From IMG/VR virus record IMGVR_UViG_3300042345_000296, positions 1 to 31,134 of that record: 31,134 nt of DNA; one strand, written 5' to 3'. The translations under genes and the position numbers were made by a program. Positions 14,314 through 30,580 of this stretch are shown one piece after another. The DNA comes from a virus. Position 1 is the stretch's first letter; each line of letters opens with the position of its first letter. The notes under the pieces were generated by a model that saw only the letters and a list, made by a program, of their open reading frames with translations, was not told the origin of the DNA and did not search any database.

Positions 14314-14886
14314 ATGAAAACAGTAGGAGATAAATTAAAGCCCTTCGCCGTAGTTGGCGTTAAGCCAGGCAAGTTGACCCCAGATGATGCTTTTGAAACT
14401 ATCACAGAAAAGAGTTTTGAAGGCAAGTGGAAAGTAATTGTTTACTATCCAAAAGATTTTACTTTTGTCTGCCCAACTGAGATCGTTGCTTATGACAAGT
14501 TGAACAAAGATTTCGCTGATCGTGATGCCGTATTACTAATCGGTAGCACAGACAACGAGTTCTGTAAACTAGCATGGCGCGCAAATCATGAAGATTTGAA
14601 GAAGACTAACAGTTGGATGTTTGCCGATGTTAAGCGCGAGACATACAATGACGTTGATGGTTATAGTAATGAAGGTTTGATCGATCAACTAGGTGTATTC
14701 TACGCACCGGCTGGTGCAGCATTACGCGCCACGTTCATCGTTGACCCACAGAATGTTATTCAGCACGTTACTGTAAACAACTTGAATGTTGGTCGTAGCC
14801 CAGAAGAAACATTGCGTGTACTAGACGCTTGCCAGACAGGTGAACTATGCCCGTGCAATCGTACTATCGGCGGTGAAACACTGTAA
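14314..14886 (+). CDS. ahpC: 2-Cys peroxiredoxin AhpC
   Basis: 190 residues. It reduces H2O2, organic peroxides and peroxynitrite. The peroxidatic Cys53 lies in KDFTFVCPTEIVAYDKLN and the resolving Cys is in the C-terminal GELCPCNRTIGGETL (Cys179/Cys181). The N-terminus MKTVGDKLKPFAVVGVKPGK and the ending resemble betaproteobacterial AhpC from memory. AGGAG precedes the ATG. It is the first gene of an overlapping run ending in an ahpD-like gene, so the peroxidase and its partner are in one transcript. A peroxiredoxin is rare in phages and would protect the infected cell from oxidative bursts or support virion protein folding. Confidence 0.95.
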   Translation: MKTVGDKLKPFAVVGVKPGKLTPDDAFETITEKSFEGKWKVIVYYPKDFTFVCPTEIVAYDKLNKDFADRDAVLLIGSTDNEFCKLAWRANHEDLKKTNSWMFADVKRETYNDVDGYSNEGLIDQLGVFYAPAGAALRATFIVDPQNVIQHVTVNNLNVGRSPEETLRVLDACQTGELCPCNRTIGGETL

Positions 14887-15530
14887 TGCTTGAAACTATC
14901 TGCGAAACGCTTGTAGAGGCTTATCGTAGAAATTGGATCACAAGTCGTGATGGCAATGTTAGTATTCGTCATCACGACCGTGATCACTTCTATATAACAC
15001 CTAGCGGTGTACGTAAGCAAACACTACAGCCTGATCAATTCAAAAAGATAGGCATAATGCATCAACCTATTGATAGATGGAATTGGACTGATTTGCCTTA
15101 CACAGATATAAGCAAAAATCTTAGACCAAGCGGCGAGTTACCATTACATTTTGGTTTACAAAAGATGATGGGGCAACATAGTAACGATGTTCGTGTCGTG
15201 ATGCACTTTCATCCTACATATTGTGTAGCAGCCATGCATGCGGGTATAGATTTAAGCACAGTCGTAAATGATTTTCCCGAACTAAGCCGTTATACAAAAG
15301 TAGCAAAGAATGTACCAGACGTACCTCCTATCAGTCAAGAATTGGCTGATCGTTGTCTTGAGAATCTAGAATTGACTAACAATGGCACTATATCTTATGA
15401 TATAGTTGGCATCAAAGGTCACGGAGTAGTAGCAATTGATACAAGCCCGTGGCGTGCGTTTGAACATATAGAAAGACTAGAACACATTTGTAAGATCGTG
15501 CTTTCTAGCAGAAAGGTTCATAGTGCATGA
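14886..15530 (+). CDS. Class II aldolase/adducin family protein
   Basis: 214 residues. It starts on the last base of the ahpC stop. Class II aldolases (fuculose- or rhamnulose-type) bind one metal ion by three His and use a Glu as base: here His107 and His109 in VMHFHP, His179 in KGHGVVAI, and Glu84 in PSGELPLHFG. The N-terminal RNWITSRDGNVSIRHHDRD is also typical. The substrate cannot be read from sequence, since the family includes sugar phosphate aldolases, epimerases and decarboxylases. It overlaps the DUF2061 gene by 8 bases. Its place between ahpC and ahpD suggests co-capture from a host genome. Confidence 0.9.
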   Translation: MLETICETLVEAYRRNWITSRDGNVSIRHHDRDHFYITPSGVRKQTLQPDQFKKIGIMHQPIDRWNWTDLPYTDISKNLRPSGELPLHFGLQKMMGQHSNDVRVVMHFHPTYCVAAMHAGIDLSTVVNDFPELSRYTKVAKNVPDVPPISQELADRCLENLELTNNGTISYDIVGIKGHGVVAIDTSPWRAFEHIERLEHICKIVLSSRKVHSA

Positions 15531-15732
15531 GTCTAATAAACGCAGTTTAGCAAAAGCAGTAAGTTGGCGAATCACCGGTACTGTAGATACATTCATAATA
15601 AGTTTTTTTGTGACGGGTGAAGTAGCATTAGCGGGTGCTATTGCAGTAACAGAAGTAGTGACGAAAATAGTTTTATATTGGTTGCATGAGAGAGTTTGGA
15701 ATAAAGTGAAGTGGGGTAAGACAGATGCTTGA
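15523..15732 (+). CDS. DUF2061 small membrane protein
   Basis: 69 residues from a GTG at 15523 that overlaps the aldolase stop. RSLAKAVSWRITGTVDTFII and LAGAIAVTEVVTKIVLYWLH with ERVWNKV match DUF2061 very well; the family has two membrane helices (about residues 19-37 and 41-59) and an ending like HERVWNK. Function is unknown; such genes sit beside various metabolic genes in bacteria and occur in phage auxiliary regions. No ATG is available in frame near the start, so GTG is likely. It overlaps the next gene by 8 bases. Confidence 0.87.
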   Translation: MHESNKRSLAKAVSWRITGTVDTFIISFFVTGEVALAGAIAVTEVVTKIVLYWLHERVWNKVKWGKTDA

Positions 15733-16120
15733 GTGTTTGATATTAGGTGATAGCATAGCAGTAGGTACACATCAAGCAAGACCTGAGTGTGCTGTATATG
15801 CTAGAGGCGGAATCAACAGTAGAGATTTCGTTAACAGATATATAGGCAAAGACTTAGTTGCCGACACAGTAGTTATCAGTTTGGGTTCTAATGACCATAA
15901 AGGTATTAAGACTAAAAACGAATTGATGGATTTGCGAAGTCAAGTAGTAGCAAAAAAAGTATATTGGATACTGCCTGCAATCAAACCAGAGATACAGGAA
16001 ATAGTAGAAGAAGTAGCACACAAGTATGGTGATTGGATGATTAGAATTCCTCATCTTTCAAATGACGGTGTGCATCCTACTAGGCAAGGATATAAGAAAA
16101 TAGGAGATATAACAAAATGA
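15725..16120 (+). CDS. SGNH/GDSL-type hydrolase
   Basis: 131 residues, short for the family. The catalytic pattern is intact: Ser10 in ILGDSIAVG (block I), Asn56 in SLGSNDHKG (block III), and Asp114/His117 in NDGVHPTRQGY (block V). The family removes acyl groups from lipids, sugars or peptidoglycan. With no signal peptide it should act in the cytoplasm, perhaps on sugar or capsule precursors. It overlaps the DUF2061 gene by 8 bases and the ahpD-like gene by 4 (ATGA). The small size suggests a minimal catalytic core. Confidence 0.87.
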   Translation: MLECLILGDSIAVGTHQARPECAVYARGGINSRDFVNRYIGKDLVADTVVISLGSNDHKGIKTKNELMDLRSQVVAKKVYWILPAIKPEIQEIVEEVAHKYGDWMIRIPHLSNDGVHPTRQGYKKIGDITK

Positions 16121-16653
16121 ATGGATTAAGAAATTGGGTAGAAATTATCAAAGATAGCATCCCTGACCATAGTAAAGATATAAGATTAAATCTTGACGCA
16201 GTAATTAATCGTAGCCTGTTGAGCAAAGAAGATACACATGCAGTCGCATTAACAAGCGCACTTGCGGCAGGCAATGGAGAACTAGCGTTTGCGATCATGA
16301 CTTCAGGAGAGTTGGATGAATTTCCTAAAGAAATGGAAGCCGCAAAAACAGCAGCGAGCCTAATGGGAATGAATAACGTATGGTATCCATATGTCGAGAT
16401 GACACAGGATCCCGAACTCAAAGGCTTACCTGCAGGATTGCGTATGAATGCATACGCAACACACGGTGGTGTATCAAAGAAGCAGTTTGAGATGTATGCA
16501 CTAGCCGCTAGCGCAATAGGTAAATGTCATTTTTGTGTTAAGAACCACTATGATGTTCTTAAGAAGGAAGGAATGACTACACCAGAACTACATCACGTAG
16601 GTAAAATCGCTGCCGTGATTAATGCCATTAGCAAAGTAGCGCCAGATTTATAA
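16117..16653 (+). CDS. AhpD-like alkylhydroperoxidase (carboxymuconolactone decarboxylase family)
   Basis: 178 residues. It has the AhpD/CMD motif GKCHFCVKNHYDVL with Cys137 and Cys140 as the redox pair and His144 as base. MGMNNVWYPYVEM and LRMNAYATHGGV are typical of the bacterial AhpD-like family. In mycobacteria AhpD links AhpC to NADH reductants; here it shares a transcript with ahpC, so a similar reducing role is a sound inference. The N-terminus (IPDHSKDIRLNLDAVINRS) also matches betaproteobacterial AhpD-like proteins from memory. Its end overlaps the minus-strand gene by 6 bases. Confidence 0.9.
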   Translation: MNGLRNWVEIIKDSIPDHSKDIRLNLDAVINRSLLSKEDTHAVALTSALAAGNGELAFAIMTSGELDEFPKEMEAAKTAASLMGMNNVWYPYVEMTQDPELKGLPAGLRMNAYATHGGVSKKQFEMYALAASAIGKCHFCVKNHYDVLKKEGMTTPELHHVGKIAAVINAISKVAPDL

Positions 16654-17726: not shown

Positions 17727-17755
17727 TTGACATTTGGTTTTAGAGGGTGCATAAT
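17727..17755 (+). promoter_or_regulatory. Strong sigma70-type promoter
   Basis: TTGACA (17727-17732), 17-bp spacer, CATAAT (17750-17755). It lies immediately after the terminator and opens the tRNA/ncRNA region. It reads into 17756-17811, which holds a Shine-Dalgarno-like AAGGAG but no convincing ORF. Confidence 0.7.
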
Positions 17756-17811: not shown

Positions 17812-17840
17812 TTGACACGCACATGAATTTGTGCGATGAT
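17812..17840 (+). promoter_or_regulatory. Sigma70-type promoter with inverted repeat in the spacer
   Basis: TTGACA (17812-17817), 17-bp spacer, GATGAT (17835-17840). The spacer holds CGCAC and GTGCG arms 8 nt apart, which could be an operator. It reads into the structured block starting near 17846. Confidence 0.6.
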
Positions 17841-17845: not shown

Positions 17846-18088
17846 ACTAGTGTGAAATTGAGGGAACGAGGTCCTCACAGCGCACTTTAAACATGCTGTA
17901 AACGGGCGGACAGTATACATGAAAGGGTTGGCGATAACTTCCCGAGTAAGACTACTGACTAGGGCATGACCCTAGTATAGCAAAGGAAACTTTGCTATTC
18001 TATAAGCACATTCGTTAATGCCATCAGGCTCTGCAACTCGCTTGGGTACTCCGTGTTAATTTTGAATGTGCTTATAGAATAGTAAATA
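17846..18088 (+). ncRNA. Structured RNA candidate with 19-bp perfect stem
   Basis: About 240 nt with no ORF, starting just after a promoter and ending before tRNA-Thr. Hairpins seen: ACTAGGG/CCCTAGT (17958-17976), ATAGCAAAG with a GAAA tetraloop and CTTTGCTAT (17977-17998), and a 19-bp perfect stem, 17995-18013 with 18064-18082, enclosing about 50 nt. The GAAA hairpin shares four bases with the long stem, so the two either compete or stack end to end. No match to RNase P, tmRNA or 6S RNA core sequences is apparent. GC content is visibly higher than the coding parts. Function unknown. Confidence 0.6.
17995..18082. repeat. 19-bp perfect inverted repeat
   Basis: CTATTCTATAAGCACATTC at 17995-18013 and its exact complement GAATGTGCTTATAGAATAG at 18064-18082, with a 50-nt loop. 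Pairing can extend 4 bp outwards with one G-U. No T-run follows, so it is not a plain terminator. Confidence 0.95.
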
Positions 18089-18095
18089 GTTCGTT

Positions 18096-18171
18096 GCCCA
18101 TCTAGCTCAGTTGGTAGAGCACCTGATTAGTAATCAGGATGTCGGCGGTTCGATCCCGTCGATGGGCACCA
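18096..18171 (+). tRNA. tRNA-Thr(AGT)
   Basis: Cloverleaf with acceptor GCCCATC/GATGGGC, anticodon stem CCTGA/TCAGG and loop TTAGTAA, CCA encoded. A34 is unusual: in bacteria A34 is normal only in tRNA-Arg(ACG). A second Thr tRNA (TGT) is at 29505. Confidence 0.95.
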
Positions 18172-18184
18172 AAGTAAAGATTAT

Positions 18185-18260
18185 TGGCCTATAGCTCAGT
18201 CGGTAGAGCATTTGACTGTTAATCAAAGTGTCCCTGGTTCGAGCCCAGGTAGGCCAGCCA
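18185..18260 (+). tRNA. tRNA-Asn(GTT)
   Basis: Acceptor TGGCCTA/TAGGCCA, anticodon loop CTGTTAA between TTTGA and TCAAA, discriminator G, CCA encoded. Confidence 0.96.
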
Positions 18261-18299
18261 ATATTCTGTAGGTAAGATATGTTGAATAGGACATATCAC

Positions 18300-18340
18300 G
18301 GTAGTTCGCGGTGTGTGGGGCGACTATCTCTTTTTAATTT
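18300..18340 (+). terminator. Intrinsic terminator between tRNA-Asn and tRNA-Glu
   Basis: GGTAG-T-TCGC pairs with GCGA-CTATC (18300-18309 with 18320-18328, one bulge), then CTCTTTTTAATTTT. A smaller GATATGT/ACATATC hairpin (18276-18297) precedes it. It would end a Thr-Asn transcript. Confidence 0.6.
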
Positions 18341-18341
18341 T

Positions 18342-18417
18342 GCTCGGTTCGTCTAGAGGCCTAGGACGCCGCCCTTTCACGGCAGTAACACGGGTTCGAA
18401 TCCCGTACCGAGTACCA
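18342..18417 (+). tRNA. tRNA-Glu(TTC)
   Basis: Acceptor GCTCGGT/ACCGAGT with a G-T pair at 1-72; anticodon loop CTTTCAC; anticodon stem has one C-A mismatch; T-stem CGGG with TTCGAAT; CCA encoded. Confidence 0.93.
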
Positions 18418-18421
18418 GTTT

Positions 18422-18498
18422 GGGTCTATCGTATAATGGCATATTATATCTGGCTCTTAACCAGAAAGATGCAGGTTCAAGTCCTGCTAGGCCCACCA
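18422..18498 (+). tRNA. tRNA-Lys(CTT)
   Basis: Acceptor GGGTCTA/TAGGCCC, anticodon loop CTCTTAA between TCTGG and CCAGA, A discriminator, CCA encoded. Its D arm (GTATAATGGCAT) is not like the usual Lys D arm. A separate tRNA-Lys(TTT) is at 23621. Confidence 0.9.
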
Positions 18499-18507
18499 AA
18501 CCTCGGT

Positions 18508-18581
18508 TGAGGGATCATCCAATGGTAGGATAGCGGACTTTGACTCCGTTCATCTTGGTTCGAATCCAAGTCCCTCAGCCA
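18508..18581 (+). tRNA. tRNA-Gln(TTG), first copy
   Basis: Acceptor TGAGGGA/TCCCTCA, anticodon loop CTTTGAC between GCGGA and TCCGT, G discriminator, CCA encoded. A different tRNA-Gln(TTG) is at 23478; the two are only distantly similar. Confidence 0.94.
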
Positions 18582-18769
18582 GATTATATCATCCTGTCCT
18601 TTGATGTAGTAGGGAATGATTATACGGTAAAACATCAGTACAGAGTGCGAGGTTGTCTGTTGGTAGCATGAATATACTATGAGGTGAACAGAATAGTCTA
18701 TGTTGCGCGGGGGCATAGATGAGATCAAACTCTATTGTTGTTTACGGTGGAGTTAGCCCGCGCCTTAAC
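18582..18769 (+). ncRNA. Structured RNA candidate with predicted pseudoknot
   Basis: 188 nt without a gene. CTATG/CATAG (18698-18702 with 18714-18718) encloses the left arm of a GC-rich stem GCGCGGG/CCCGCGC (18705-18711 with 18757-18763). The two stems interleave, so they form an H-type pseudoknot if both fold. It lies between tRNA-Gln and a gene that has its own TAAATA box, so it may be either a separate RNA or a long leader. Confidence 0.45.
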
Positions 18770-18775
18770 TAAATA
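18770..18775 (+). promoter_or_regulatory. TAAATA box 6 nt before an ATG
   Basis: Sequence CTTAACTAAATATTCTCTATG; nearly the same string (CTTAACTAAATATCTGTATG) occurs on the minus strand before the FkbH-like gene. This points to a shared late-promoter/start signal. Confidence 0.5.
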
Positions 18776-18781
18776 TTCTCT

Positions 18782-19381
18782 ATGAACAATTACTTTTTTA
18801 AAATAGCAAAATTTGATATCGATGAAACTCTGTTATACAACGAGTGGTTCCACGTAGCCAACAAATACGATGCGTTTAACAGGACTAAAAAGTTTATAGA
18901 AGATATCAATGGGGTAAAAGGTTACAAGACCTATCATAGGTTGCGAATCAACTATCCCGATAATATGAGTAGTGATATGGATCCAGTTATGATACAAGGG
19001 TATAACACTGAAGTAGAGGCTACTGGATATAGCATCGATAATATCATTGATGATTTTAAAGGTTCGTATACTGAAAAGATTGCTAGACAAGTGCATGATT
19101 TCTTGCTTGAAAAATATCCGGCATATATCGTCACTAATATCAAGTATCATTCGATATCACCCAAATCATCAATGACGTTGCATATTGATGATAGCACTAG
19201 ACCTAGATTTTTTCTTTCTGCTAGCGTACCCGAAGGTTGTTTCATGCAAATAAACAATGAGAAGATTCCTATGCATGAGACCGGCGCATTGTACAGAATG
19301 ATATGCAAAGTGCTACATAATCCATTAAATGAAAGTGATGGTTATCGTGTTTCTATGGTTTTTGATATAGCACATAAGTAA
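18782..19381 (+). CDS. Putative Fe(II)/2-oxoglutarate hydroxylase (Asp/Asn hydroxylase-like)
   Basis: 199 residues. The C-terminal half has SMTLHIDDSTRPRFFLSASV with His134 and Asp136, then MHETGALYRMICKVLHNPLN with His179 and Arg189 (YRVSMVFDI). This resembles the HxD...H metal triad and 2-oxoglutarate-binding Arg of the Asp/Asn beta-hydroxylase cupin family. The N-terminal half is unassigned. The substrate, if any, is unknown: a host protein or surface component are both possible. A second protein with the same layout is at 28936. A TAAATA box lies 6 nt before the ATG. Confidence 0.6.
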   Translation: MNNYFFKIAKFDIDETLLYNEWFHVANKYDAFNRTKKFIEDINGVKGYKTYHRLRINYPDNMSSDMDPVMIQGYNTEVEATGYSIDNIIDDFKGSYTEKIARQVHDFLLEKYPAYIVTNIKYHSISPKSSMTLHIDDSTRPRFFLSASVPEGCFMQINNEKIPMHETGALYRMICKVLHNPLNESDGYRVSMVFDIAHK

Positions 19382-19384
19382 GTG

Positions 19385-19566
19385 CTAAATAAGTTTTGTG
19401 AGAGTCCGAAAGCAAAGAGTTTAACCAACTACCTGGCTATCAAGGATGTATCCGACCTTTTGTTATATTCGATCCCGGTTATTAGGGTGTGCTGTGGTGG
19501 CACTGGAAACAAAAGGGGGCATATCTAGCCCTTAAACGGACGATAGCACCCTCACCCCGAATTAAC
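19385..19566 (+). ncRNA. Structured RNA candidate
   Basis: About 180 nt without a gene between the hydroxylase gene and tRNA-Ala. AGGGT-GT-GCT (19484-19493) pairs with AGC-ACCCT (19545-19552) around an inner GGGC/GCCC hairpin (19517-19531). TAAATA occurs at its left edge (19385-19390), and an AGTCCGAAAGCAAAGAG stretch follows. No homolog recognised; RNA function inferred only from pairing and lack of ORFs. Confidence 0.45.
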
Positions 19567-19642
19567 GGGCCTGTAGCTCAGTTGGGAGAGCGCCAGCTTT
19601 GCAAGCTGGATGTCGCAAGTTCGATCCTTGTCAGGTCCACCA
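19567..19642 (+). tRNA. tRNA-Ala(TGC)
   Basis: Acceptor GGGCCTG/CAGGTCC, anticodon loop TTTGCAA between CCAGC and GCTGG, G-T at position 3-70, CCA encoded. The G3-T70 pair is the alanine identity element. Confidence 0.96.
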
Positions 19643-19661
19643 GATTTTAAGTGAGTTTAAA

Positions 19662-20096
19662 TTGTTGCATCTTATAAATGATTTCACAGATAAGTTTTTC
19701 AGTTTCTTGTTAGAAGATCCTGTGAGACCAAATATTCCTCAAGTTGACCGTATAGGCAACAACAAGGATATCTTTGTCATGCGTGATGAAGATGATAAGG
19801 CACAAGCGATAACCTGTGTGAGTTATCAAAAATCTGTTCCTACTAGTGAGGCTGATCTTTTTGAAATGTGTGAAGAACCCGAGATCGCGGTTTTTTATAC
19901 GATTTGGAGTTATAAAGCCGGAGCCGGTAGACAATTGATATTTGATGCCGCACAGTATATCAAAGAAAACAGACCTGAGATCAAACGTTTTGTCACATTA
20001 AGTCCTAAGACTGAAATGGCTAAAAGGTTTCATCTTAAGAACGGTGCTTTAGTATTCAGAGAAAATACAGACACCGTTAACTATGAATATCTATAA
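19662..20096 (+). CDS. GNAT-family acetyltransferase-like protein
   Basis: 144 residues from a TTG at 19662. No ATG exists, and longer frames begin inside tRNA-Ala. The acetyl-CoA-binding motif is seen at IAVFYTIWSYKAGAGRQLIF (Arg/Gly turn KAGAGR), followed by the helix YIKENRPEIKRFVTLSP and the closing MAKRFHLKNGALVFR, which is the usual GNAT C-terminal pattern. The substrate is unknown. It lies between tRNA-Ala and tRNA-fMet, with its stop only 4 nt before the latter. TATAAATG at 19673 is a weak box inside the frame. Confidence 0.75.
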   Translation: MLHLINDFTDKFFSFLLEDPVRPNIPQVDRIGNNKDIFVMRDEDDKAQAITCVSYQKSVPTSEADLFEMCEEPEIAVFYTIWSYKAGAGRQLIFDAAQYIKENRPEIKRFVTLSPKTEMAKRFHLKNGALVFRENTDTVNYEYL

Positions 20097-20100
20097 ATGT

Positions 20101-20175
20101 CGCAGAGTGGAGAAGGGGTATCTCGTCAGGCTCATAACCTGAAGGTCGGTGGTTCGATTCCATCCTCTGCAACCA
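20101..20175 (+). tRNA. tRNA-fMet(CAT), initiator type
   Basis: Acceptor CGCAGAG/CTCTGCA has the C1-A72 mismatch that marks bacterial initiator tRNA; the D arm (GTGGAGAAGGGGTATCTCGTC) is close to bacterial fMet; anticodon loop CTCATAA. The anticodon stem has two G-C pairs plus A-T instead of the usual three G-C. CCA encoded. Confidence 0.9.
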
Positions 20176-20201
20176 ATAACTGTTGTTAAAATACAACAGG
20201 C

Positions 20202-20230
20202 TTGACAACGGGACATTTCGGCACTATAAT
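20202..20230 (+). promoter_or_regulatory. Perfect consensus sigma70 promoter
   Basis: TTGACA (20202-20207), 17-bp spacer, TATAAT (20225-20230), between tRNA-fMet and tRNA-Trp. ACGGGAC in the spacer (20208-20214) has its complement GTCCCGT at 20254-20260. A CTGTTGT/ACAACAG hairpin sits just upstream, and a T-run follows at 20276-20283. Confidence 0.9.
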
Positions 20231-20285
20231 ACATGTATTGATGCTGAAAAAGCGTCCCGTTCTTTAAAATACACGATTTTTTTAT

Positions 20286-20361
20286 ATACCGGTAGCTCAA
20301 CTGGCAGAGTAGCGGTCTCCAAAACCGCAGGTTGGGGGTTCGATTCCCTCCCGGTATGCCA
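20286..20361 (+). tRNA. tRNA-Trp(CCA)
   Basis: Acceptor ATACCGG/CCGGTAT, anticodon loop CTCCAAA between GCGGT and ACCGC, G discriminator, CCA encoded. Confidence 0.96.
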
Positions 20362-20367
20362 AATTAT

Positions 20368-20445
20368 GTGTCGGTGGCAGAGCGGCCCATTGCAACGGAT
20401 TGCAAATCCGTAAAACCGTCAGTTCAAATCTGACCCGACACTCCA
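20368..20445 (+). tRNA. tRNA-Cys(GCA)
   Basis: Acceptor GTGTCGG/CCGACAC, anticodon loop TTGCAAA between ACGGA and TCCGT, T discriminator as required for Cys, CCA encoded. The D loop and 6-nt variable loop are slightly long. Confidence 0.94.
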
Positions 20446-20984
20446 AGTTTCATCGGAAAATGGCTGTGACCACCATAACCAGCCCAGTGCTTTTGTACGG
20501 CGCAATTCTAGACAAGCCAGAGAGAGCAAACGATAGCAGGGAGATTGCTATCCATAACGATGAGCCCTACGTTCCGGGTGTCTCCGGATAGTGTGACCCA
20601 CACGATGAGAAGTAGTGTGACAACTACGGGTGGTAGTCTTTAAACCAAAAGGCCGCTGGCAGTGCGAGAACGGTCCCTGTCGGGAAGCGGGTGGAAGGAG
20701 TGTGTGATGGGTATGATAGCGTCATATCTTGATACTCTATAATTACCGCCGGGGGACGCAGAGCATTTTAAAATATATTAAGGGTTACCTGATCCGTTAG
20801 GTACTTTAAGAGAGGAGCACAGGGGCCGCCCTACGCAATCTTAGAGTACAGGAAGCGTATGAGTACATTGTACCGAACGTGACGGGCAGTTAGGCAGTAA
20901 TGACGAAACTGAAAATATGAGAGACGGTCTCATATAGCAAGTCTAGTTCCCTTAGTGTATTTTAAAATGCTAAATTAAATATGC
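20446..20984 (+). ncRNA. Giant structured RNA candidate (539 nt) within the tRNA array
   Basis: No ORF is credible here, yet the stretch is GC-richer than the coding parts and full of perfect hairpins: GATAGCA/TGCTATC (20532-20552), GTGTG/CACAC (20591-20603), GTAGT/ACTAC (20612-20627), TACCT/AGGTA (20786-20803), TACGC/GCGTA (20832-20859) and ATATGAGA/TCTCATAT (20915-20935). A 14-bp perfect long-range stem (20762-20775 with 20958-20971) closes a 210-nt domain at its 3' side. Size, folding density and position among tRNAs resemble the GOLLD and ROOL giant phage RNAs, but no conserved core is recognised, so this may be a member or a new family. Confidence 0.65.
20762..20971. repeat. 14-bp perfect long-range inverted repeat
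   Basis: AGCATTTTAAAATA at 20762-20775 is the exact complement of TATTTTAAAATGCT at 20958-20971. It closes the 3' domain of the 539-nt block; between the arms lie at least three smaller hairpins. Confidence 0.93.
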
Positions 20985-21069
20985 GGAGATGAAGCATCAA
21001 TGGTGATGCAGTGGACTGTAAATCCGCCGCCTTCGGGCACGACTGGTTCGATCCCAGTAATCTCCACCA
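20985..21069 (+). tRNA. tRNA-Tyr(GTA)
   Basis: Class II tRNA with a long variable arm (CGCCTTCGGGCAC), anticodon loop CTGTAAA between GTGGA and TCCGC, acceptor GGAGAT/ATCTCC with a G-A mismatch at 7-66, CCA encoded. It begins 13 nt after the long-range stem of the structured block. Confidence 0.93.
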
Positions 21070-21076
21070 AATATTA

Positions 21077-21153
21077 GCCTCAATAGCTCAGTTGGTTAGA
21101 GCATCGTCTTGATAAGGCGGGGGTCCATAGTTCGAATCTATGTTGAGGCACCA
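21077..21153 (+). tRNA. tRNA-Ile(GAT)
   Basis: Acceptor GCCTCAA/TTGAGGC, anticodon loop TTGATAA between TCGTC and GGCGG (two G-T pairs), A discriminator, CCA encoded. Confidence 0.95.
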
Positions 21154-21156
21154 ATT

Positions 21157-21232
21157 GGCAGTGTAGCATAGCGGTTAATGCGCTTCCTTCATACGGAATA
21201 GATCGTGTGTTCGAATCACACCACTGCTACCA
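21157..21232 (+). tRNA. tRNA-Met(CAT), probably elongator
   Basis: Acceptor GGCAGTG/CACTGCT with G-T at 1-72, anticodon loop TTCATAC between CTTCC and GGAAT, CCA encoded. Lacks the C1-A72 mismatch of the initiator. Ile(lysidine-CAT) is possible, but its C4-G69/C5-G68 pairs are absent, so Met is favoured. Confidence 0.85.
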
Positions 21233-21234
21233 AT

Positions 21235-21311
21235 GGTGGCTGTCGTCAAGCGGTTAAGACCATGGATTGTGATTCCATTATACGTGGGTTCGATTCCCAC
21301 CAGTCACCCCA
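21235..21311 (+). tRNA. tRNA-His(GTG)
   Basis: Acceptor GTGGCTG/CAGTCAC preceded by an encoded G-1 that pairs with C73, the histidine identity element. Anticodon loop TTGTGAT between TGGA and TCCA. CCA encoded. Confidence 0.96.
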
Positions 21312-21315
21312 AATT

Positions 21316-21391
21316 GCCATAGTAGCTCAGTTGGTAGAGCAACGGATTGAAAATCCGTGTGTCGTTGGTTCGATTCCAACCTTTGGCACCA
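21316..21391 (+). tRNA. tRNA-Phe(GAA)
   Basis: Acceptor GCCATAG/CTTTGGC with one T-T mismatch, anticodon loop TTGAAAA between CGGA and TCCG, CCA encoded. Confidence 0.95.
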
Positions 21392-21396
21392 AAAGG

Positions 21397-21425
21397 TTGA
21401 CAAATAGATTCTTTGATAGTATAAT
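21397..21425 (+). promoter_or_regulatory. Perfect consensus sigma70 promoter
   Basis: TTGACA (21397-21402), 17-bp spacer, TATAAT (21420-21425). It drives tRNA-Ser, starting 11 nt downstream of the -10 box, so transcription would start almost at the tRNA 5' end. Confidence 0.9.
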
Positions 21426-21435
21426 TAAAGCATAA

Positions 21436-21527
21436 GGAGAGGTGCCCGAGAGGCCGAAGGGAGCGGTTTGCTAAACCGTCGAACGTAGAAATATGTTCCG
21501 TGGGTTCGAATCCCACTCTCTCCACCA
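21436..21527 (+). tRNA. tRNA-Ser(GCT)
   Basis: Class II tRNA with long variable arm, acceptor GGAGAGG/TCTCTCC, anticodon loop TTGCTAA between CGGT and ACCG, CCA encoded. Confidence 0.96.
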
Positions 21528-21745
21528 GACCCCGGTTTACACTTTTACGTTATATAAAGTGGGTGATTGTCGCAACCATACAGACACGGTGAGATCATTA
21601 TCGACCGCAAGGCCTGATTTTACGGGCGACTTGAGACACATGATCGGGCAGAAGTGAAACTGACCTAGATGCAAATATCAACGGACAGGGTAACAACTCA
21701 GTTTGGGGCAGAACAGGGAACTGTAGCCAAACACTTTAGAATTTT
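21528..21745 (+). ncRNA. Structured RNA candidate between tRNA-Ser and tRNA-Asp
   Basis: 218 nt, no ORF. CACTTT/AAAGTG (21540-21561), GATCAT/ATGATC (21593-21645) enclosing a smaller pairing, and GTTTGG/CCAAAC (21701-21732) enclosing ACAG-GGAA-CTGT. Co-transcribed with tRNA-Ser from the 21397 promoter if no terminator intervenes; none is seen. No family recognised. Confidence 0.5.
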
Positions 21746-21822
21746 GGCCCGTTAGATCAGTTGGTTAGATCGCATGCCTGTCACGCATGAGGCCAGGGGT
21801 TCAAGTCCCCTACGGGTCGCCA
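21746..21822 (+). tRNA. tRNA-Asp(GTC)
   Basis: Acceptor GGCCCGT/ACGGGTC with a G-T at 2-71, anticodon loop CTGTCAC between CATGC and GCATG, G discriminator, CCA encoded. Confidence 0.96.
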
Positions 21823-21829
21823 TATTTTT

Positions 21830-21906
21830 GCGTCTTTAGTTCAGTGGATCAGAATGCAACGCTACGAACGTTGAGGTCGGAGGTTCGAGTCCTTCAAGGC
21901 GCGCCA
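21830..21906 (+). tRNA. tRNA-Arg(ACG)
   Basis: Acceptor GCGTCTT/AAGGCGC, anticodon loop CTACGAA between CAACG and CGTTG, G discriminator, CCA encoded. On the other strand the FkbH-like gene continues through this tRNA, stop at 21836. Confidence 0.96.
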
Positions 21907-23380
21907 GCCAATCATCTATTTGATTTGCTATCTTATGAATCGTGTTCCTGCTGTATTTTCTCAATGCAGGTAAATCATTTATAGGAGTTCTATTGATAGG
22001 GTGTGTGCTATCATCATTATCTTCATCAGGCATGTACATTATAGTCAGGTTAGGATTATTGATATGTTTCTGCCAAGCATGATATAGATAATCATAACGC
22101 ACATCCTTCTTGAATACATCTGAGTATTTTGGTAACAGTATCAACGCCTTTCGCTGTGTATCTGATAAACGGTTCACGAAATGTGTGATGACGTTATCAA
22201 AATATTCTTTAGTGTGATTCTTTTCAAGAGACCAATACATGCTATAATCGAAAATAAATTCGATGTACGAAGCGAACACAATGATCTTGGGTAATTTCTC
22301 AAAATTATACTGTGAGTGATATAATTTATCAGTGCGAAACAAATCTTCTAGTGGTATATTGTAATAGATTTGATCCATATATCTGCTATATGCGGCGTAT
22401 GCAGGTCCTAAACAATGCATCAAGAACGCGATAGATGGTTCTTTAACTGAAAGATTTTCTTGACCTCTGATGAAGTTTTCTAAAGAGGAATATTCATGTA
22501 CGTTGATATAATCGATATCAGCATGATCTATACAATTGCTACCCAATAACATTTTGTATTTGGATTTCAACAATTGCATACATCGTTGTTCAATATTCAT
22601 GTTCATGACTCTGCAACTAAAAACAAAATTAGTTATAGTGGCTGCGTTTAATAATGAATCACCTTTAGTTTGTATTGAGATATAACCGATCAAACCATAA
22701 TAACCATACTTGTCCCATGCGAATACAGCATAACTTTTTATGTCGTTTCTGAGGATATAATCTGATACTGTGTTTTTAGCAAAGCGACTATTGGTATAGT
22801 TAAGTTGATTGGATTTATTGACTAGTTCTTCTACTCTTTCTTGATATAACAAACAATCATGATTCTCTGCTATCGCTATATTGATATCAGAATCTTTTAA
22901 AAATTCAATATTAGAATCATAAGATTTTCTGATATCTTTCTTTGTTTCTAATATTCTATATTGTTTTGTTTTAGTATTATTTTGGGGTATGGCAAACTCA
23001 TCTATGAATTTGTATGGGTCATTGTACGTAACTATGCCTGGACAATAATATGTTGCTTCATTGAGGTTTATCATATTATCATCGATGAATACAACATCAT
23101 CCGAACGTAACTGACAATCAGATATAATTTGATTTATCCTGTTACCTTTCGGTAGTAGATTGATGCTTGGGAAAACAAAGAGTTCCCAAATATCTAGACT
23201 CTGTAGTTTTTTCTTGATACGATCATGATCGTTTTTAGAACAGATAGAATGTATGATACCATTCTTTTCTGTGTTTTTTATAAATTCGATGATGTCTTGA
23301 TTCGGCGAAGTATCGCCGCCTTCAGTGATACTACCACTCCATAGTACACCATCAAGATCCCAGATAACAAGTTTAACCAT
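21836..23380 (-). CDS. FkbH-like HAD-GNAT protein
   Basis: 514 residues. The N-terminal HAD phosphatase-like domain has VIWDLDGVLWSGS with Asp8 and Asp10, then the SKND and FIDDN motifs. After it comes the FkbH-type GNAT part with ELVNKSNQLNYTNSRF and YYGLIGYISI. FkbH proteins load a glyceryl unit from 1,3-bisphosphoglycerate onto a carrier protein in polyketide and surface-polysaccharide pathways. The C-terminal ~170 residues are unassigned. The last 23 residues (LARLEGLEPPTS...) are read from the antisense strand of tRNA-Arg, so no earlier stop exists. A TAAATA box lies 5 nt before its ATG on the minus strand. Confidence 0.85.
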   Translation of the reverse strand: MVKLVIWDLDGVLWSGSITEGGDTSPNQDIIEFIKNTEKNGIIHSICSKNDHDRIKKKLQSLDIWELFVFPSINLLPKGNRINQIISDCQLRSDDVVFIDDNMINLNEATYYCPGIVTYNDPYKFIDEFAIPQNNTKTKQYRILETKKDIRKSYDSNIEFLKDSDINIAIAENHDCLLYQERVEELVNKSNQLNYTNSRFAKNTVSDYILRNDIKSYAVFAWDKYGYYGLIGYISIQTKGDSLLNAATITNFVFSCRVMNMNIEQRCMQLLKSKYKMLLGSNCIDHADIDYINVHEYSSLENFIRGQENLSVKEPSIAFLMHCLGPAYAAYSRYMDQIYYNIPLEDLFRTDKLYHSQYNFEKLPKIIVFASYIEFIFDYSMYWSLEKNHTKEYFDNVITHFVNRLSDTQRKALILLPKYSDVFKKDVRYDYLYHAWQKHINNPNLTIMYMPDEDNDDSTHPINRTPINDLPALRKYSRNTIHKIANQIDDWLARLEGLEPPTSTFVALHSDPLN

Positions 23381-23385
23381 ACAGA

Positions 23386-23391
23386 TATTTA
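23386..23391 (-). promoter_or_regulatory. TAAATA box 5 nt before the FkbH-like ATG
   Basis: On the minus strand: CTTAACTAAATATCTGTATG. Same string as before the hydroxylase gene at 18782. A transcript from here would start close to the ATG. Confidence 0.5.
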
Positions 23392-23396
23392 GTTAA

Positions 23397-23473
23397 GCCC
23401 AGGTGATGGAACAGGTATACGTGTCTGACTCAAAATCAGAATTTTGTGGGTTCGAATCCCACCTTGGGCACCA
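23397..23473 (+). tRNA. tRNA-Leu(CAA) without long variable arm
   Basis: Acceptor GCCCAGG/CTTGGGC, Leu-type D arm, anticodon loop CTCAAAA between TCTGA and TCAGA. The variable region is only ATTTT (5 nt), where bacterial tRNA-Leu has a 12-15 nt arm. The same shape is found in tRNA-Leu(TAG) at 26651, and both share most bases outside the anticodon arm. Confidence 0.92.
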
Positions 23474-23477
23474 ATAT

Positions 23478-23552
23478 TGGGGATTCGCCAAGCGGTAAGG
23501 CATCGGATTTTGATTCCGACATTCCCAGGTTCGATCCCTGGATCCCCAGCCA
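23478..23552 (+). tRNA. tRNA-Gln(TTG), second copy
   Basis: Acceptor TGGGGAT/ATCCCCA, anticodon loop TTTTGAT between TCGGA and TCCGA, G discriminator, CCA encoded. It looks like a standard bacterial tRNA-Gln, unlike the first copy. Confidence 0.95.
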
Positions 23553-23558
23553 AATAGT

Positions 23559-23587
23559 TTGACAAGTTCCGATGAAACAGTTATAAT
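23559..23587 (+). promoter_or_regulatory. Perfect consensus sigma70 promoter
   Basis: TTGACA (23559-23564), 17-bp spacer, TATAAT (23582-23587), between tRNA-Gln and tRNA-Lys(TTT), 34 nt before the tRNA. Confidence 0.9.
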
Positions 23588-23620
23588 TTTAATAGAATGA
23601 TTGTACATTTGACAGATTAC

Positions 23621-23696
23621 GGGACGTTAGCTCAGTTGGTAGAGCAGTAGACTTTTAATCTATTGGTCACAGGTTCAAATCCTGTACGTCCTACCA
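23621..23696 (+). tRNA. tRNA-Lys(TTT)
   Basis: Acceptor GGGACGT/ACGTCCT with G-T at 1-72, anticodon loop CTTTTAA between TAGA and TCTA, CCA encoded. Just upstream is the 23559 promoter. Confidence 0.95.
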
Positions 23697-23705
23697 TTTT
23701 CAGGA

Positions 23706-23711
23706 TAAATA
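23706..23711 (+). promoter_or_regulatory. TAAATA box 5 nt before an ATG
   Basis: ATAAATA follows tRNA-Lys and precedes ATG 23717 by 5 nt, with no Shine-Dalgarno between. Matches the pattern of the other array genes. Confidence 0.5.
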
Positions 23712-23716
23712 AAAAT

Positions 23717-24481
23717 ATGAGTAAGTTGTTGATCACAAGCGGATGTAGTTTTAGTGAATGTCTATCGTCAAGTATCGATACTTGGCCTCGACATCTCACA
23801 CGTAAATTAGAATCGCATGGTTACGATAAGCATATCAGTTGTGCTATGGGCAGTCAAGGTAATGGATTGATTAGTCGTGGACCAATGTATGAAGTGACCA
23901 AAGCACTGAAGACTCATAAGCCAGAAGACATTCTTGTCGGCATTATGTGGAGCCACAGCAATCGATTTGATTATCGTTGTGAAGACCCTACCGTATTGAG
24001 TTGGGGTCATGAGAACAAGCATCATTGGATGGTGAATCCACGATCATTTGTAGATGGAGCACCCAATAATTGGGTGATCGGTAATCTACATTGGGATAGT
24101 ATAGAATTCTCAACTCATTTGAAGTATTATCATAGTCATATCGGTTCATCAATATTGAGCCTTGAGCATATATTGCGCACTCAATATTTTTTGAAGTTGA
24201 AGAAAGTTCCATATTTCTTTACAGATTTTATAGACTATAATATAGTTGAGAAAGCATTCTTACATGAACCAGAATTGACTTATCTCATGGATGAATTAGA
24301 CAAAGATCAGTATTTACCCGTAACGAGCGAACACGGTTGGTTGATAGAAAATAGCATGACTAAGGAAGAATATCTTAAAGAACATAATGGTTGGCAGTGG
24401 ATTCATCCTAAGACCCATCATCATAAAGAATTCGTAGATAGAGTTATCTATCCTTGGTTGCAGGATAAAAAGTATATATGA
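23717..24481 (+). CDS. SGNH-like hydrolase-fold protein (DUF6071-like)
   Basis: 254 residues. The start at 23717 is chosen because the longer frame begins in tRNA-Lys. SGNH-like blocks: ITSGCSFSE with Ser11 (block I), GSQGNG near residue 45 (block II), MWSHSNRFD near residue 77 (block III), and a C-terminal HPKTHHHKEFVDRVIYPWL (block V region, His-rich). Similar proteins occur widely in marine phages as conserved unknowns. Substrate not known; acyl esters of glycans are typical for the fold. It is one of two SGNH-type proteins in the window, with little similarity to the 15725 gene. Confidence 0.7.
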   Translation: MSKLLITSGCSFSECLSSSIDTWPRHLTRKLESHGYDKHISCAMGSQGNGLISRGPMYEVTKALKTHKPEDILVGIMWSHSNRFDYRCEDPTVLSWGHENKHHWMVNPRSFVDGAPNNWVIGNLHWDSIEFSTHLKYYHSHIGSSILSLEHILRTQYFLKLKKVPYFFTDFIDYNIVEKAFLHEPELTYLMDELDKDQYLPVTSEHGWLIENSMTKEEYLKEHNGWQWIHPKTHHHKEFVDRVIYPWLQDKKYI

Positions 24482-24486
24482 TTTTT

Positions 24487-24562
24487 CTGCCCGTAGTTCA
24501 GGGGATAGAACAACAGCCTTCTAAGCTGTGGGTCGCAGGTTCGAATCCTGCCGGGCAGGCCA
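24487..24562 (+). tRNA. tRNA-Arg(TCT)
   Basis: Acceptor CTGCCCG/CGGGCAG, anticodon loop CTTCTAA between ACAGC and GCTGT, CCA encoded. Confidence 0.95.
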
Positions 24563-24576
24563 TAAAGTGAGGACTA

Positions 24577-25200
24577 ATGAGAGTTAAAGTATACAATGAC
24601 AGCATAATTCATTTGATGTTTCCTAATCAAAAGGAACTCACTATGACTTTATCTAGACCTCAAGAATTCTATGAAAGCAATAATTCAAAGTTGCGTAATA
24701 GAATTTTCACGTATGAACAATTCATAGATCATCATACACAAAAAGACGGGTGTTTTGACTACTTCAGTTTTTGGGGTGGTTTTAATATACCTGGGCATAT
24801 CTTAGAAGACTTCTTTGACGTTTTTGAATTGACCCAACGTGAAGCAGCGGTTAGGAAAATTACTAAGAGATACAAGCGAAAGCCTTACTATCTGATCGGT
24901 ACGTTAGCAAAAGATGATGAGACGATGGTTCACGAACTACTACATGCTCATTATTATTTGGATCCTGTGTATAAACAACAGGTAGATGTGCTAGTGAGGT
25001 CTATGAGTAAGACTCTAAGAGTAGAACTGACCACTGCGTTAAAAACAATGGGTTATGCTAACCATGTGATAACGGACGAAATAAATGCGTACATGGCTAG
25101 TAGTAAATATAAGTACTTAAAAGAGGAATTAGAATTAGATGTTACGAGGGCTGATATGAAGCCATTCGTAGAGTTGATGAAGACAATAATGCGGCGGTAG
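24577..25200 (+). CDS. Putative zinc metallopeptidase (HExxH)
   Basis: 207 residues. The motif MVHELLHAHYY gives a zinc-binding HExxH (His119, Glu120, His123), and a downstream Glu in ITDEINAYMAS (Glu168) could be the third ligand, as in gluzincin-type peptidases. No signal peptide is seen, so it would act in the host cytoplasm or be packaged. The target is unknown. The stop codon TAG (25198-25200) is formed by the first ten bases of tRNA-Gly, overlapping T8-A9-G10. AGGA lies before the ATG. Confidence 0.7.
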   Translation: MRVKVYNDSIIHLMFPNQKELTMTLSRPQEFYESNNSKLRNRIFTYEQFIDHHTQKDGCFDYFSFWGGFNIPGHILEDFFDVFELTQREAAVRKITKRYKRKPYYLIGTLAKDDETMVHELLHAHYYLDPVYKQQVDVLVRSMSKTLRVELTTALKTMGYANHVITDEINAYMASSKYKYLKEELELDVTRADMKPFVELMKTIMRR

Positions 25201-25264
25201 TTTAATGGTAGAATGAGAGCCTTCCAAGCTCACGACAAGGGTTCGATTCCCTTTCGCCGCTCCA
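25191..25264 (+). tRNA. tRNA-Gly(TCC)
   Basis: Acceptor GCGGCGG/TCGCCGC, anticodon loop CTTCCAA between GAGC and GCTC, T discriminator typical of glycine, CCA encoded. Its first ten bases overlap the preceding gene. Confidence 0.96.
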
Positions 25265-25280
25265 AACAAAGGTGAATTTT

Positions 25281-25520
25281 ATGATGGATAGCAAACAAAT
25301 GGCACTACAATATCTCATGGATTCGTGTGATGATATGGCTAGTGCTTGCGAGAAGAATTTAAAGTCGCTCGACAAGAAAAAGACCTTAAGAGATTTAGAA
25401 CGAAATTTTGGTAACTTGCTAGCAAGTATTAAAGAAGTAGTCGAAGCATATAAGTTAGATGAGAACAAAGTTTTTTCCGAAGTAGAGAACTCTATACAAA
25501 AACGCAAAGAATCAATCTGA
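25281..25520 (+). CDS. Small helical hypothetical protein
   Basis: 79 residues, nearly all helical and charged (MALQYLMDSCDDMASACEKN then DKKKTLRDLERNFGNLLASI). It looks like a two-helix coiled coil. AAAGG precedes the ATG; a GTG at 25272 is an alternative. Not recognised. It is followed 6 bases later by the glycosyltransferase-like gene, so the two form a small operon. Confidence 0.65.
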   Translation: MMDSKQMALQYLMDSCDDMASACEKNLKSLDKKKTLRDLERNFGNLLASIKEVVEAYKLDENKVFSEVENSIQKRKESI

Positions 25521-25526
25521 CTTGGT

Positions 25527-26660
25527 ATGAAGATTCTGCGTAAGATAGTCAACATGGATAGTATGCTTTATGATGAGCATAGCCATGACATTTTTGAGAA
25601 ACATGATCATTTCTTTCAACTAGATGATCGCTGGGAATATGTCGATAATATAGAAGACGCAGACATAGTTCCTATATTACCAGCCGGAAAACCTAAACTT
25701 GATAAATGCTCACTTAGATTGAGAGACGATCAAGTACTATGTATGTTGATGTACTATTTGATAGATGATCACCATGATATATCATTTTTTGAAAATGTGC
25801 TAGAATACGCGGGGCATATAGCCAAAAATGTATTGATAGTGCATAAAAATAGTTTATTTAAAAATCATGTTCACGATAACATCGTGCATTATGATTCTAT
25901 GTTTAGTATCACTAAGATGTGTTTTACCGAATATGAAAACTATGATTTTACAGACCGTATTTGGAATCTATATTCACATAATGATACATATCGTTTACCG
26001 GATATAAAAAAGAATCTAACTAAAAAATTTATGTGTCCTACGTATGTCTATCAACCATATACACATGCTAGGATGATCTATAGAGCAAAAGTTAGAGAAA
26101 TCATAGAACCATATAAAGAATATGGTTATGTGAGTACAGATAAAGTCAAATTGATGCCTAATAGTCCGGTGACTGACCTCATGCTGAATAATATGATGAA
26201 TAGTACTACTATACAATGGTATCCGGTCAGCGATGAATTATATAACTCATCCTGTATCTCAGTTGTATGCGAGACTATAACGGGTTTATGCAATGAGGAT
26301 AAAAAATATAATAAAGTTCAATGTGTCACAGAGAAAACACTAGAACCATTGGCAAAAGGTAATTTCATATTACCATTTGGATATCCCGGATTGATACAAG
26401 ATGTATTAGCATATGGGTTCAAATTACCAGAATGGATAGATTATTCATATGACGATTTACATGACATAGATAAACGATTTAACAAGTTCAAAACGATATT
26501 AGATAATTTATTAGGTAACATCTCTGTAGACAGATTACAAAAGTTTTGTGAAAGAGATATAGATATATTAGAACACAATAAACGGGTATTTTACTCTAGA
26601 CCTTATGATAATTTATATGATATAATCTTGAGTAAATACAAAGAATTATTGCCCAGGTGA
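25527..26660 (+). CDS. Glycosyltransferase-like protein
   Basis: 377 residues, not firmly assigned. The C-terminal part contains CVTEKTLEPLAKGNFILPFG followed by YPGLIQDVLAYGFKLPEW and DYSYDDLHDIDKRFNKF. A TEKTxxP motif followed by a glycine-rich turn resembles the acceptor/donor region of exostosin- and fucosyltransferase-like glycosyltransferases common in marine phages. The N-terminal half is a Rossmann-like mixed domain with a run of aspartates and histidines. Its stop TGA lies inside tRNA-Leu(TAG), at the 10-base overlap. The role may be glycan decoration of DNA, virion or host surface. Confidence 0.6.
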   Translation: MKILRKIVNMDSMLYDEHSHDIFEKHDHFFQLDDRWEYVDNIEDADIVPILPAGKPKLDKCSLRLRDDQVLCMLMYYLIDDHHDISFFENVLEYAGHIAKNVLIVHKNSLFKNHVHDNIVHYDSMFSITKMCFTEYENYDFTDRIWNLYSHNDTYRLPDIKKNLTKKFMCPTYVYQPYTHARMIYRAKVREIIEPYKEYGYVSTDKVKLMPNSPVTDLMLNNMMNSTTIQWYPVSDELYNSSCISVVCETITGLCNEDKKYNKVQCVTEKTLEPLAKGNFILPFGYPGLIQDVLAYGFKLPEWIDYSYDDLHDIDKRFNKFKTILDNLLGNISVDRLQKFCERDIDILEHNKRVFYSRPYDNLYDIILSKYKELLPR

Positions 26661-26727
26661 TGGAATTGGTATACGTGTTGGTCTTAGAAGCCAAATTTTG
26701 TGGGTTCGAGTCCCACCCTGGGCACCA
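26651..26727 (+). tRNA. tRNA-Leu(TAG) without long variable arm
   Basis: Acceptor GCCCAGG/CCTGGGC, anticodon loop CTTAGAA between TTGGT and GCCAA, variable region ATTTT. Shares the odd short variable loop with tRNA-Leu(CAA). The preceding gene ends 10 bases inside it. Confidence 0.92.
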
Positions 26728-26739
26728 TTATAAGAGAGC

Positions 26740-28137: not shown

Positions 28138-28146
28138 CCAATTCAC

Positions 28147-28175
28147 TATACATTCTTGTCCGGGCTAGTTATAAT
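28147..28175 (+). promoter_or_regulatory. Sigma70-type promoter
   Basis: TATACA (28147-28152, 4/6 to consensus), 17-bp spacer, TATAAT (28170-28175). Upstream of the 54-residue ORF at 28200. Weaker than the tRNA-array promoters. Confidence 0.5.
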
Positions 28176-28199
28176 ATACACAGTTAATCGGAGAATGTT

Positions 28200-28364
28200 A
28201 TGAAAACGGTTACATTTGAAAACATCTTCAATAAAGAGAGGTTCGAAGTTTTTGGTAAAAAAGATACCAAATTCATCGATGGTATTGAATACTGGAAAGT
28301 ATTTAAGCAAGGTACCAAGCGTGAAGTATTAGTACGCAAGGATTACTTGAAAAAGGTTAAATAA
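28200..28364 (+). CDS. Small conserved-type hypothetical protein (54 aa)
   Basis: 54 residues: MKTVTFENIFNKERFEVFGK, then strand-like FIDGIEYWKVFKQG and VLVRKDYLKKVK. Two-strand plus basic tail suggests a small fold. GGAGA lies before the ATG and a sigma70-like promoter upstream. It resembles short proteins known in T4-like marine phages, but no function is recalled. Confidence 0.65.
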   Translation: MKTVTFENIFNKERFEVFGKKDTKFIDGIEYWKVFKQGTKREVLVRKDYLKKVK

Positions 28365-28381
28365 GAAAGACAGAGGACGAT

Positions 28382-28939
28382 ATGGCAGTTTTAGCACTTG
28401 ATATCTCAGGAACTCCGCGTCAATGGATCACCAATGATGACGCGATCACTTACCATGCCAAGAGAGCAGTTGCCTGGACATTGGGCAACATCGTAGCAAA
28501 ATATCGCGGTGGAGTTCAAAACGATGGTACAGAGTCATATTTGGAAACACCTAGTATTATCGCTATCAAGGGCCATGGATTCAACCCCGCAAGGCATGGG
28601 CGTGTCGCATTGACTAACCGCACACTGTTCGGTCGTGATCGTCATGTTTGTGCATACTGCGGTGGTCATTTCCCTAACGGTAATCACCTTAGCCGGGATC
28701 ATATCTTACCTAAGAGTCGCGGTGGTGTTGATGACTGGATGAACGTAGTAACAGCATGTAAGAAATGTAACACTCATAAAGGTAGCAAGACTCTAAAAGA
28801 AGCAAAACTTGAATTGATCTATGTGCCATATGCACCTAATCACTTTGAGAATCTAATCTTACAGAATAGGAACATCCTAGCAGACCAGATGGAATATCTA
28901 CTGTCAGGGGTACCTAAACATAGTAGGATTATCAATTGA
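28382..28939 (+). CDS. HNH endonuclease
   Basis: 185 residues. The HNH/zinc core is intact: HVCAYCGG (Cys90/Cys93), RDHILPKSRGG with Asp106-His107, WMNVV (Asn121), ACKKCNTHK (Cys126/Cys129, Asn130, His132). The N-terminal ~80 residues (LALDISGTPRQWITNDDAIT) are of the type seen in bacterial HNH proteins. It may be a free-standing homing nuclease or a phage DNA-processing enzyme; no intron or intein is seen around it. GAGGACG before ATG is a fair ribosome-binding site. It overlaps the next gene (TTGA). Confidence 0.92.
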   Translation: MAVLALDISGTPRQWITNDDAITYHAKRAVAWTLGNIVAKYRGGVQNDGTESYLETPSIIAIKGHGFNPARHGRVALTNRTLFGRDRHVCAYCGGHFPNGNHLSRDHILPKSRGGVDDWMNVVTACKKCNTHKGSKTLKEAKLELIYVPYAPNHFENLILQNRNILADQMEYLLSGVPKHSRIIN

Positions 28940-29490: not shown

Positions 29491-29504
29491 TATATAGTAT
29501 AGAA

Positions 29505-29580: not shown

Positions 29581-29585
29581 TTTTT

Positions 29586-30215: not shown

Positions 30216-30255
30216 GTTTTGTACTATACAAAAACTATACTTTTTGGCCTGGCTG

Positions 30256-30552: not shown

Positions 30553-30580
30553 TTTAACAACCATCCTCCAGAGGGTTGTA

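Follow-up and report, generated by a model that had tools for sequence, protein, structure and literature searches.

What is the structured RNA that sits immediately 5' of a 25-tRNA island in a T4-like viral genome fragment, and what could it do there? We examined it at positions 17846-18088 of the window, by which we mean the whole stretch of DNA analysed, a 31-kb IMG/VR virus fragment of 31,134 nucleotides. The gene content of the window is T4-like (nrdA/nrdB), and the closest cultured relatives of its nrdA are genes in Xanthomonas and Stenotrophomonas phages; no T4-type major capsid gene (Gp23) was found in the fragment. Genes for an AhpC-type peroxiredoxin, a class II aldolase and a CMD/AhpD-like protein lie at 14314-16653, just upstream of the tRNA island. 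The island has the following features:

18096-18171, + strand: tRNA-Thr(AGU), first gene of the tRNA island
18096-30809: tRNA island, 25 tRNAs
18262-18330: second structured element, between tRNA-Asn and tRNA-Glu, kept in ten loci
28382-28939: HNH endonuclease-like ORF (MAVLALDISGTPRQW...)

The stem of the element at 18262-18330 varies in step (GATATGT/ACATATC in the window versus GATGTGT/ACGCATC in locus L074), and the element gave no Rfam match.

The predicted fold of the RNA at 17846-18088 had an energy of -86.1 kcal/mol, compared with -63.5 kcal/mol for dinucleotide-shuffled versions (z -5.1), and none of 200 shuffles was as good. An earlier note, made from the letters of the window, had described here an ACTAGGG/CCCTAGT stem, a GAAA hairpin and a 19-bp perfect stem around 50 nt, and all three are located where it placed them. 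They form the periphery of the RNA, its 3' domain; the pseudoknot core at 17849-17957 and the tRNA-Thr gene at 18096 had not been singled out. The most conserved part of the RNA is its 5' half, this predicted pseudoknot core of about 110 nt, made up as follows:

17849-17853, + strand: P1 5' strand AGUGU, pairing with 17882-17886
17860-17876, + strand: P2 hairpin GAGGG-AACGAGG-UCCUC, with the loop AACGAGG nearly invariant
17877-17881, + strand: P3 pseudoknot 5' strand ACAGC, pairing with 17895-17899
17882-17886, + strand: P1 3' strand GCACU
17887-17894, + strand: pseudoknot loop UUAAACAU, consensus WUAAACAU
17895-17899, + strand: P3 pseudoknot 3' strand GCUGU
17902-17909, + strand: near-invariant unpaired ACGGGCGG, complementary to E. 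coli 16S rRNA 1399-1406
17911-17957, + strand: P4 CAGUA/UACUG (17911-17915 with 17953-17957) around P5 (17925-17943)

In this topology P2 lies inside P1, and the ACAGC that follows P2 pairs with the GCUGU beyond P1 to form an H-type pseudoknot; the unpaired ACGGGCGG and the two-part P4/P5 come after it. In 79 aligned sequences, standard pairs occupied 88.6% of the cells, and the covariation score was 0.439, compared with 0.148 ± 0.010 when shuffled and 0.06-0.08 when slid. Both-side changes were observed at all five pairs of P2, with 90% of the cells paired, and the strands of P4 also co-varied across members. The pairs of P1 to P3 were counted on the re-trimmed alignment A3 only, as the initial MAFFT alignments had placed P1 and P4 wrongly. 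In P1, the search pattern and the trimming had already set four of the five pairs, which are hence uninformative in the 79-sequence alignment. Locus L085, which falls outside the search pattern, carries a compensatory change in P1 (AGCG/CGCU). For the pseudoknot, strands from loci left out of structure building were paired, and at least four contiguous pairs were formed in 93% of the 27 unique strand pairs, versus 13% of mismatched combinations. The unpaired ACGGGCGG was exact in 57 of the 62 loci selected without using it, with a mismatch in the other five; the conservation of GGGCGG in the first scan was partly imposed by a GGGCGG rule in the first search pattern, and the scan was then repeated without GGGCGG. 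Collectively, the homologs alter the DNA and keep the pairs, the reverse of the pattern named by the earlier note as speaking against its reading, in which the DNA is kept and the pairs are broken. From this comparison of sequences, we regard the RNA family and its predicted structure as close to certain.

Close relatives of the window, found through the neighbouring CMD-family gene, hold the RNA at the same place. An initial viral search based on a single arm of the long stem had matched chance palindromes only and was discarded. The first degenerate pattern of the core matched at least 119 viral contigs in IMG/VR, and the second, without the GGGCGG element, 63 IMG/VR stretches, 42 of them absent from the listed matches of the first scan. 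The RNA stands on well over 120 IMG/VR contigs, up to 365 kb long. Among bacterial and archaeal contigs (257 Gb; one genome per species, 84,980 species) only 2 matches were obtained, one in a short MAG contig that has a tRNA island of its own and the other a chance match in Actinomyces, so the RNA is essentially absent from bacterial genomes. A blastn search of the RNA and five relatives against cultured phages returned nothing meaningful. The covariance model R1, which gave 67.3 bits for the window (itself part of the training set), found no match in T4, Xanthomonas phages X1 and XaC1, Stenotrophomonas phage Moby or Acinetobacter phage MD-2021a. When 17 large contigs of 156-365 kb, chosen as carriers of the RNA, were analysed, 16 had one strong copy and one had two, and the T4-type major capsid gene (Gp23) was present in 14.

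The position of the RNA was equally regular. Same-strand tRNAs followed it in all loci long enough, with few exceptions, usually 100-350 nt on, and no opposite-strand tRNA was seen after the RNA among the loci. The first tRNA was more than 500 nt away in 23 loci, mostly behind an inserted ORF, and in eight of these the ORF was an HNH endonuclease of the family found at 28382-28939 of the window; the placement of these relatives between the RNA and the first tRNA suggests that the window's HNH ORF is a mobile gene of tRNA islands. The window shows the series by which membership was judged, i.e., P1, P2, the P3 pseudoknot, ACGGGCGG and P4 in order, upstream of same-strand tRNAs. On these sequence comparisons, the RNA is a new, previously uncatalogued and widespread predicted family of large, mostly uncultured bacterial viruses, in which it heads tRNA islands.

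Downstream of the core, the 3' domain of the window has these parts:

17958-17976, + strand: P6 hairpin ACUAGGG-CAUGA-CCCUAGU, class A only
17977-17998, + strand: P7 hairpin AUAGCAAAG-GAAA-CUUUGCUAU (as DNA, ATAGCAAAG-GAAA-CTTTGCTAT), class A only
17995-18013, + strand: P8 5' arm, 19 bp perfect, reaching 17991 in the alternative pairing
18014-18063, + strand: variable apical insert of P8, exactly 50 nt in the window and about 3-100 nt in strong-stem members
18064-18082, + strand: P8 3' arm, whose AUAG, lengthened by UAAA to 18086, is a rival partner for the P7 3' strand

Class A, a subgroup that includes the window, has P6 and P7, and class B comprises the members without them. In the 27 sequences listed, each of the 7 pairs of P6 showed 2-4 standard pair types with none broken, and P7 behaved similarly, with few breaks. 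The doubtful L155 and L300 are retained in these counts, the class A detector having wrongly caught a few class B sequences, most of them removed by eye. The loop of P7 was mostly GNRA (GAAA, GCAA, GUAA). P8 is near-universal but sequence-divergent: an inverted repeat of weight at least 10 followed the core in 88% of members versus 5% of shuffles, and its arms vary in step around an insert of widely differing length. Class B members often have a different hairpin 3' of P8, of the type ACACAUUG-GAAA-CAGUGUGU (e.g., L172, L211 and L261), detected in 33 of 105 tails versus 3.5% of shuffles, with GNRA as the commonest loop. At the other end of the RNA, L180, L189, L306 and L317 miss the AGUG strand of P1 and keep the rest of the core; they may be degenerate or variant members, possibly with another partner strand.

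Since P8 is a long palindrome with a variable central insert, and tRNA islands are hotspots for inserted ORFs, we considered that the inverted repeat and its neighbours could be a recombination, replication or packaging site in the DNA, the RNA structure being incidental. This is very unlikely: a pseudoknot and G-U pairs, both features of RNA, are among the compensatory changes, the element keeps one strand and one order with respect to the tRNAs, and four minimal members (L074, L091, L199 and L274) keep the core alone, with no P6-P8 and tRNA-Thr following at once.

The earlier note had also noticed that the GAAA hairpin and the long stem have four bases in common. These are 17995-17998 (CTAT), shared by P7 and P8, and the shared segment is longer still once a single G-U pair is allowed, which extends the long stem to 23 bp (17991-18013/18064-18086) and gives 8 nt of the P7 3' strand two possible partners. 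In class A, this strand can pair with its own 5' strand or with the sequence just 3' of P8, and the latter pairing was 5.6 nt long within sequences versus 3.7 nt between them. In each of the 16 relatives tested, the energy gap between the two states lay within -3.4 to +0.5 kcal/mol, and this extension of P8 by the P7 3' strand at near-equal energy makes a switch plausible. Thus, of the fold switching proposed by the earlier note, the competing pairings were borne out in relatives, and a switch in the cell is what we infer from them; it is plausible that the 3' domain of the class A RNA has two forms.

In agreement with the earlier view that this is not a recognised family, no Rfam match was obtained for the RNA. 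In the window only tRNAs passed the threshold, with no credible match on the RNA even at E<10; a sub-threshold YrlA match fell over tRNAs, not over the RNA. In 14 divergent loci searched at E<1, neither GOLLD, ROOL nor any other family, riboswitches and Y RNA-like RNAs included, matched it. We dropped RNase P, tmRNA and group I intron as readings, since Rfam gave no signal for them, and likewise a likeness of GCACUUUAAACA to boxA, because its CACU is paired in P1 and covaries in L085. No earlier description of the RNA family was found in the open-licence literature. The nearest likenesses are by location. GOLLD and ROOL are functionally uncharacterised non-coding RNAs of phages or prophages, often found by tRNA islands, with elaborate covarying structures that include pseudoknots (PMC12286853). 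They resemble the present RNA in standing beside phage tRNA islands but are far longer, with many GOLLD above 800 nt, and the present RNA matches no Rfam model at permissive thresholds. T4 has two small stable RNAs of unknown function, rnaC and rnaD, in its tRNA cluster (annotated in NC_000866); these close the cluster on its 3' side and are without ACGGGCGG, whereas the present RNA heads the island, and R1 found no match in T4. Type III toxin-antitoxin RNAs (ToxI-type) are likewise small pseudoknots tied to phage biology, but the window RNA has neither tandem repeats nor an adjacent toxin ORF and was negative in Rfam.

How the RNA would be transcribed bears on what it may do. Promoters and promoter-like sites in the window are:

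17812-17840, + strand: sigma-70-like promoter TTGACA-N17-GATGAT with an extended -10 (TG), 10/12 consensus matches
17727-17755, + strand: second upstream promoter-like site TTGACA-N17-CATAAT, 11/12, a consensus match only
20202-20230, 21397-21425 and 23559-23587, + strand: three perfect TTGACA-N17-TATAAT promoters inside the tRNA island

The first of these, the promoter that the earlier note put ahead of the RNA, is identical or almost so in L073, L075 and L183. A sigma-70-like promoter was found locally upstream in only about 20% of loci, versus 3% in shuffles (score 9.5), and in most loci no recognisable promoter adjoins the RNA. Three upstream arrangements were observed: some loci have a sigma-70-like promoter, others a terminator-like hairpin, and others the end of a conserved 50-60 aa ORF. 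This ORF (motif LTxEQxxKLIxxKxERA) stops a few nt 5' of P1 in L167, L170, L172, L182 and about 60 other loci, and the spacing from stop codon to core is tight in about half of the loci, mostly 5-13 nt. The ORF gave no confident Pfam match and a weak PHROGs match; its sole copy adjoins the RNA in each of four large genomes that matched it, and it was not found in the window. A pseudoknot of this type, at this spacing, would suit a recoding signal promoting read-through or frameshifting at the stop codon. We consider this extremely improbable, since tRNA genes and not an extended frame come next, and about half of the loci, the window among them, are without such an ORF.

The same spacing enters the case for a cis-acting leader of the tRNA-island transcript, which would act on polymerase or on processing, e.g., by antitermination or by setting the order of cutting. 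The RNA precedes the tRNAs on their strand at nearly all loci and has one copy per genome, which also speaks for a leader, and there is a precedent in HK022 putRNA, which acts on polymerase in cis to suppress pausing and termination (PMC9378689) and, like the present RNA, is a short, structured phage RNA at the head of a transcription unit. Against it, the three perfect promoters inside the window's island, versus 0.02 expected by chance, make one early antiterminator superfluous, and the island has few terminator-like sites on its + strand. None was detected at 17846-18095, the stretch between the RNA and tRNA-Thr included, and no T-run follows the long stem, so the earlier statement that the RNA is not a terminator holds. 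Moreover, unlike HK022 put, from which it is set apart by description and by Rfam, many members lack a nearby promoter and have a large 3' domain, and the long P8 with its variable insert and the several GNRA hairpins exceed the needs of known put-like elements. We keep a cis leader as a tentative second explanation.

We prefer to read the RNA as a stable trans-acting RNA that would be cut out together with the tRNAs, to which, judging from comparative evidence, we give a probability of roughly 0.5. It would form the 5' portion of the island transcript, which would start at the RNA's own promoter in the window and elsewhere probably arise by read-through from an upstream gene. Release would then come from the cuts that mature the tRNAs, by RNase P at the first tRNA and possibly by RNase III at P8, and the freed RNA may work in trans during infection, offering ACGGGCGG and the AACGAGG loop to a partner, for which a host ribosome component would be the first candidate. 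In the subgroup of the window, the competition of the GAAA hairpin and the long stem for one strand may let the 3' domain take two forms. GOLLD and ROOL, as precedents for a stable RNA of tRNA islands (PMC12286853), count in favour of the trans-acting RNA, as does the absence of a terminator-like site between the RNA and tRNA-Thr in the window; against it, a cis role would account equally well for the strict synteny with tRNA genes, and the distance of more than 500 nt to the first tRNA in 23 loci means that release by RNase P at the tRNA 5' end would not be general.

A specific form of the trans-acting reading is that ACGGGCGG acts as an antisense to the ribosome, pairing with 16S 1399-1406 in the decoding region (base of helix 44) and altering host translation or 30S assembly. 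The complementarity to the E. coli site is exact, ACGGGCGG is unpaired in the consensus and kept in most loci found without it, and no further complementary site was found in the window. The 16S site falls within the target of universal primer 1392R, which we counted in favour, and is buried in the mature 30S, which we counted against. Only 8 nt are complementary, and chance gives such a match in about 2% of cases for 16S and 6% for 16S plus 23S; because about 2% of 8-mers match 16S by chance, this complementarity is a lead only. In addition, the bases flanking ACGGGCGG do not lengthen the pairing, matches of 9 nt occur between the window RNA and other parts of 16S, and the five mismatched loci count against it. 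According to a report cited in PMC12286853, GOLLD bound ribosomes in pull-down experiments, which lends some weight to the antisense proposal; on balance we hold it to be unlikely. Still more doubtful is the full combination, a pseudoknotted RNA class with a two-state 3' domain, made together with the tRNAs, that would bind host ribosomes through ACGGGCGG at the 16S decoding region and retune translation along with the phage tRNA set.

With this RNA, a covariation-supported class absent from Rfam joins the very small set of phage tRNA-island RNAs, namely GOLLD, ROOL and T4 rnaC/rnaD. It supplies precise testable elements: the near-invariant unpaired ACGGGCGG, the conserved pseudoknot, and the strand common to the GNRA hairpin and the long stem. 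If the RNA acts on translation, phage tRNA islands would be linked to the takeover of the host ribosome.
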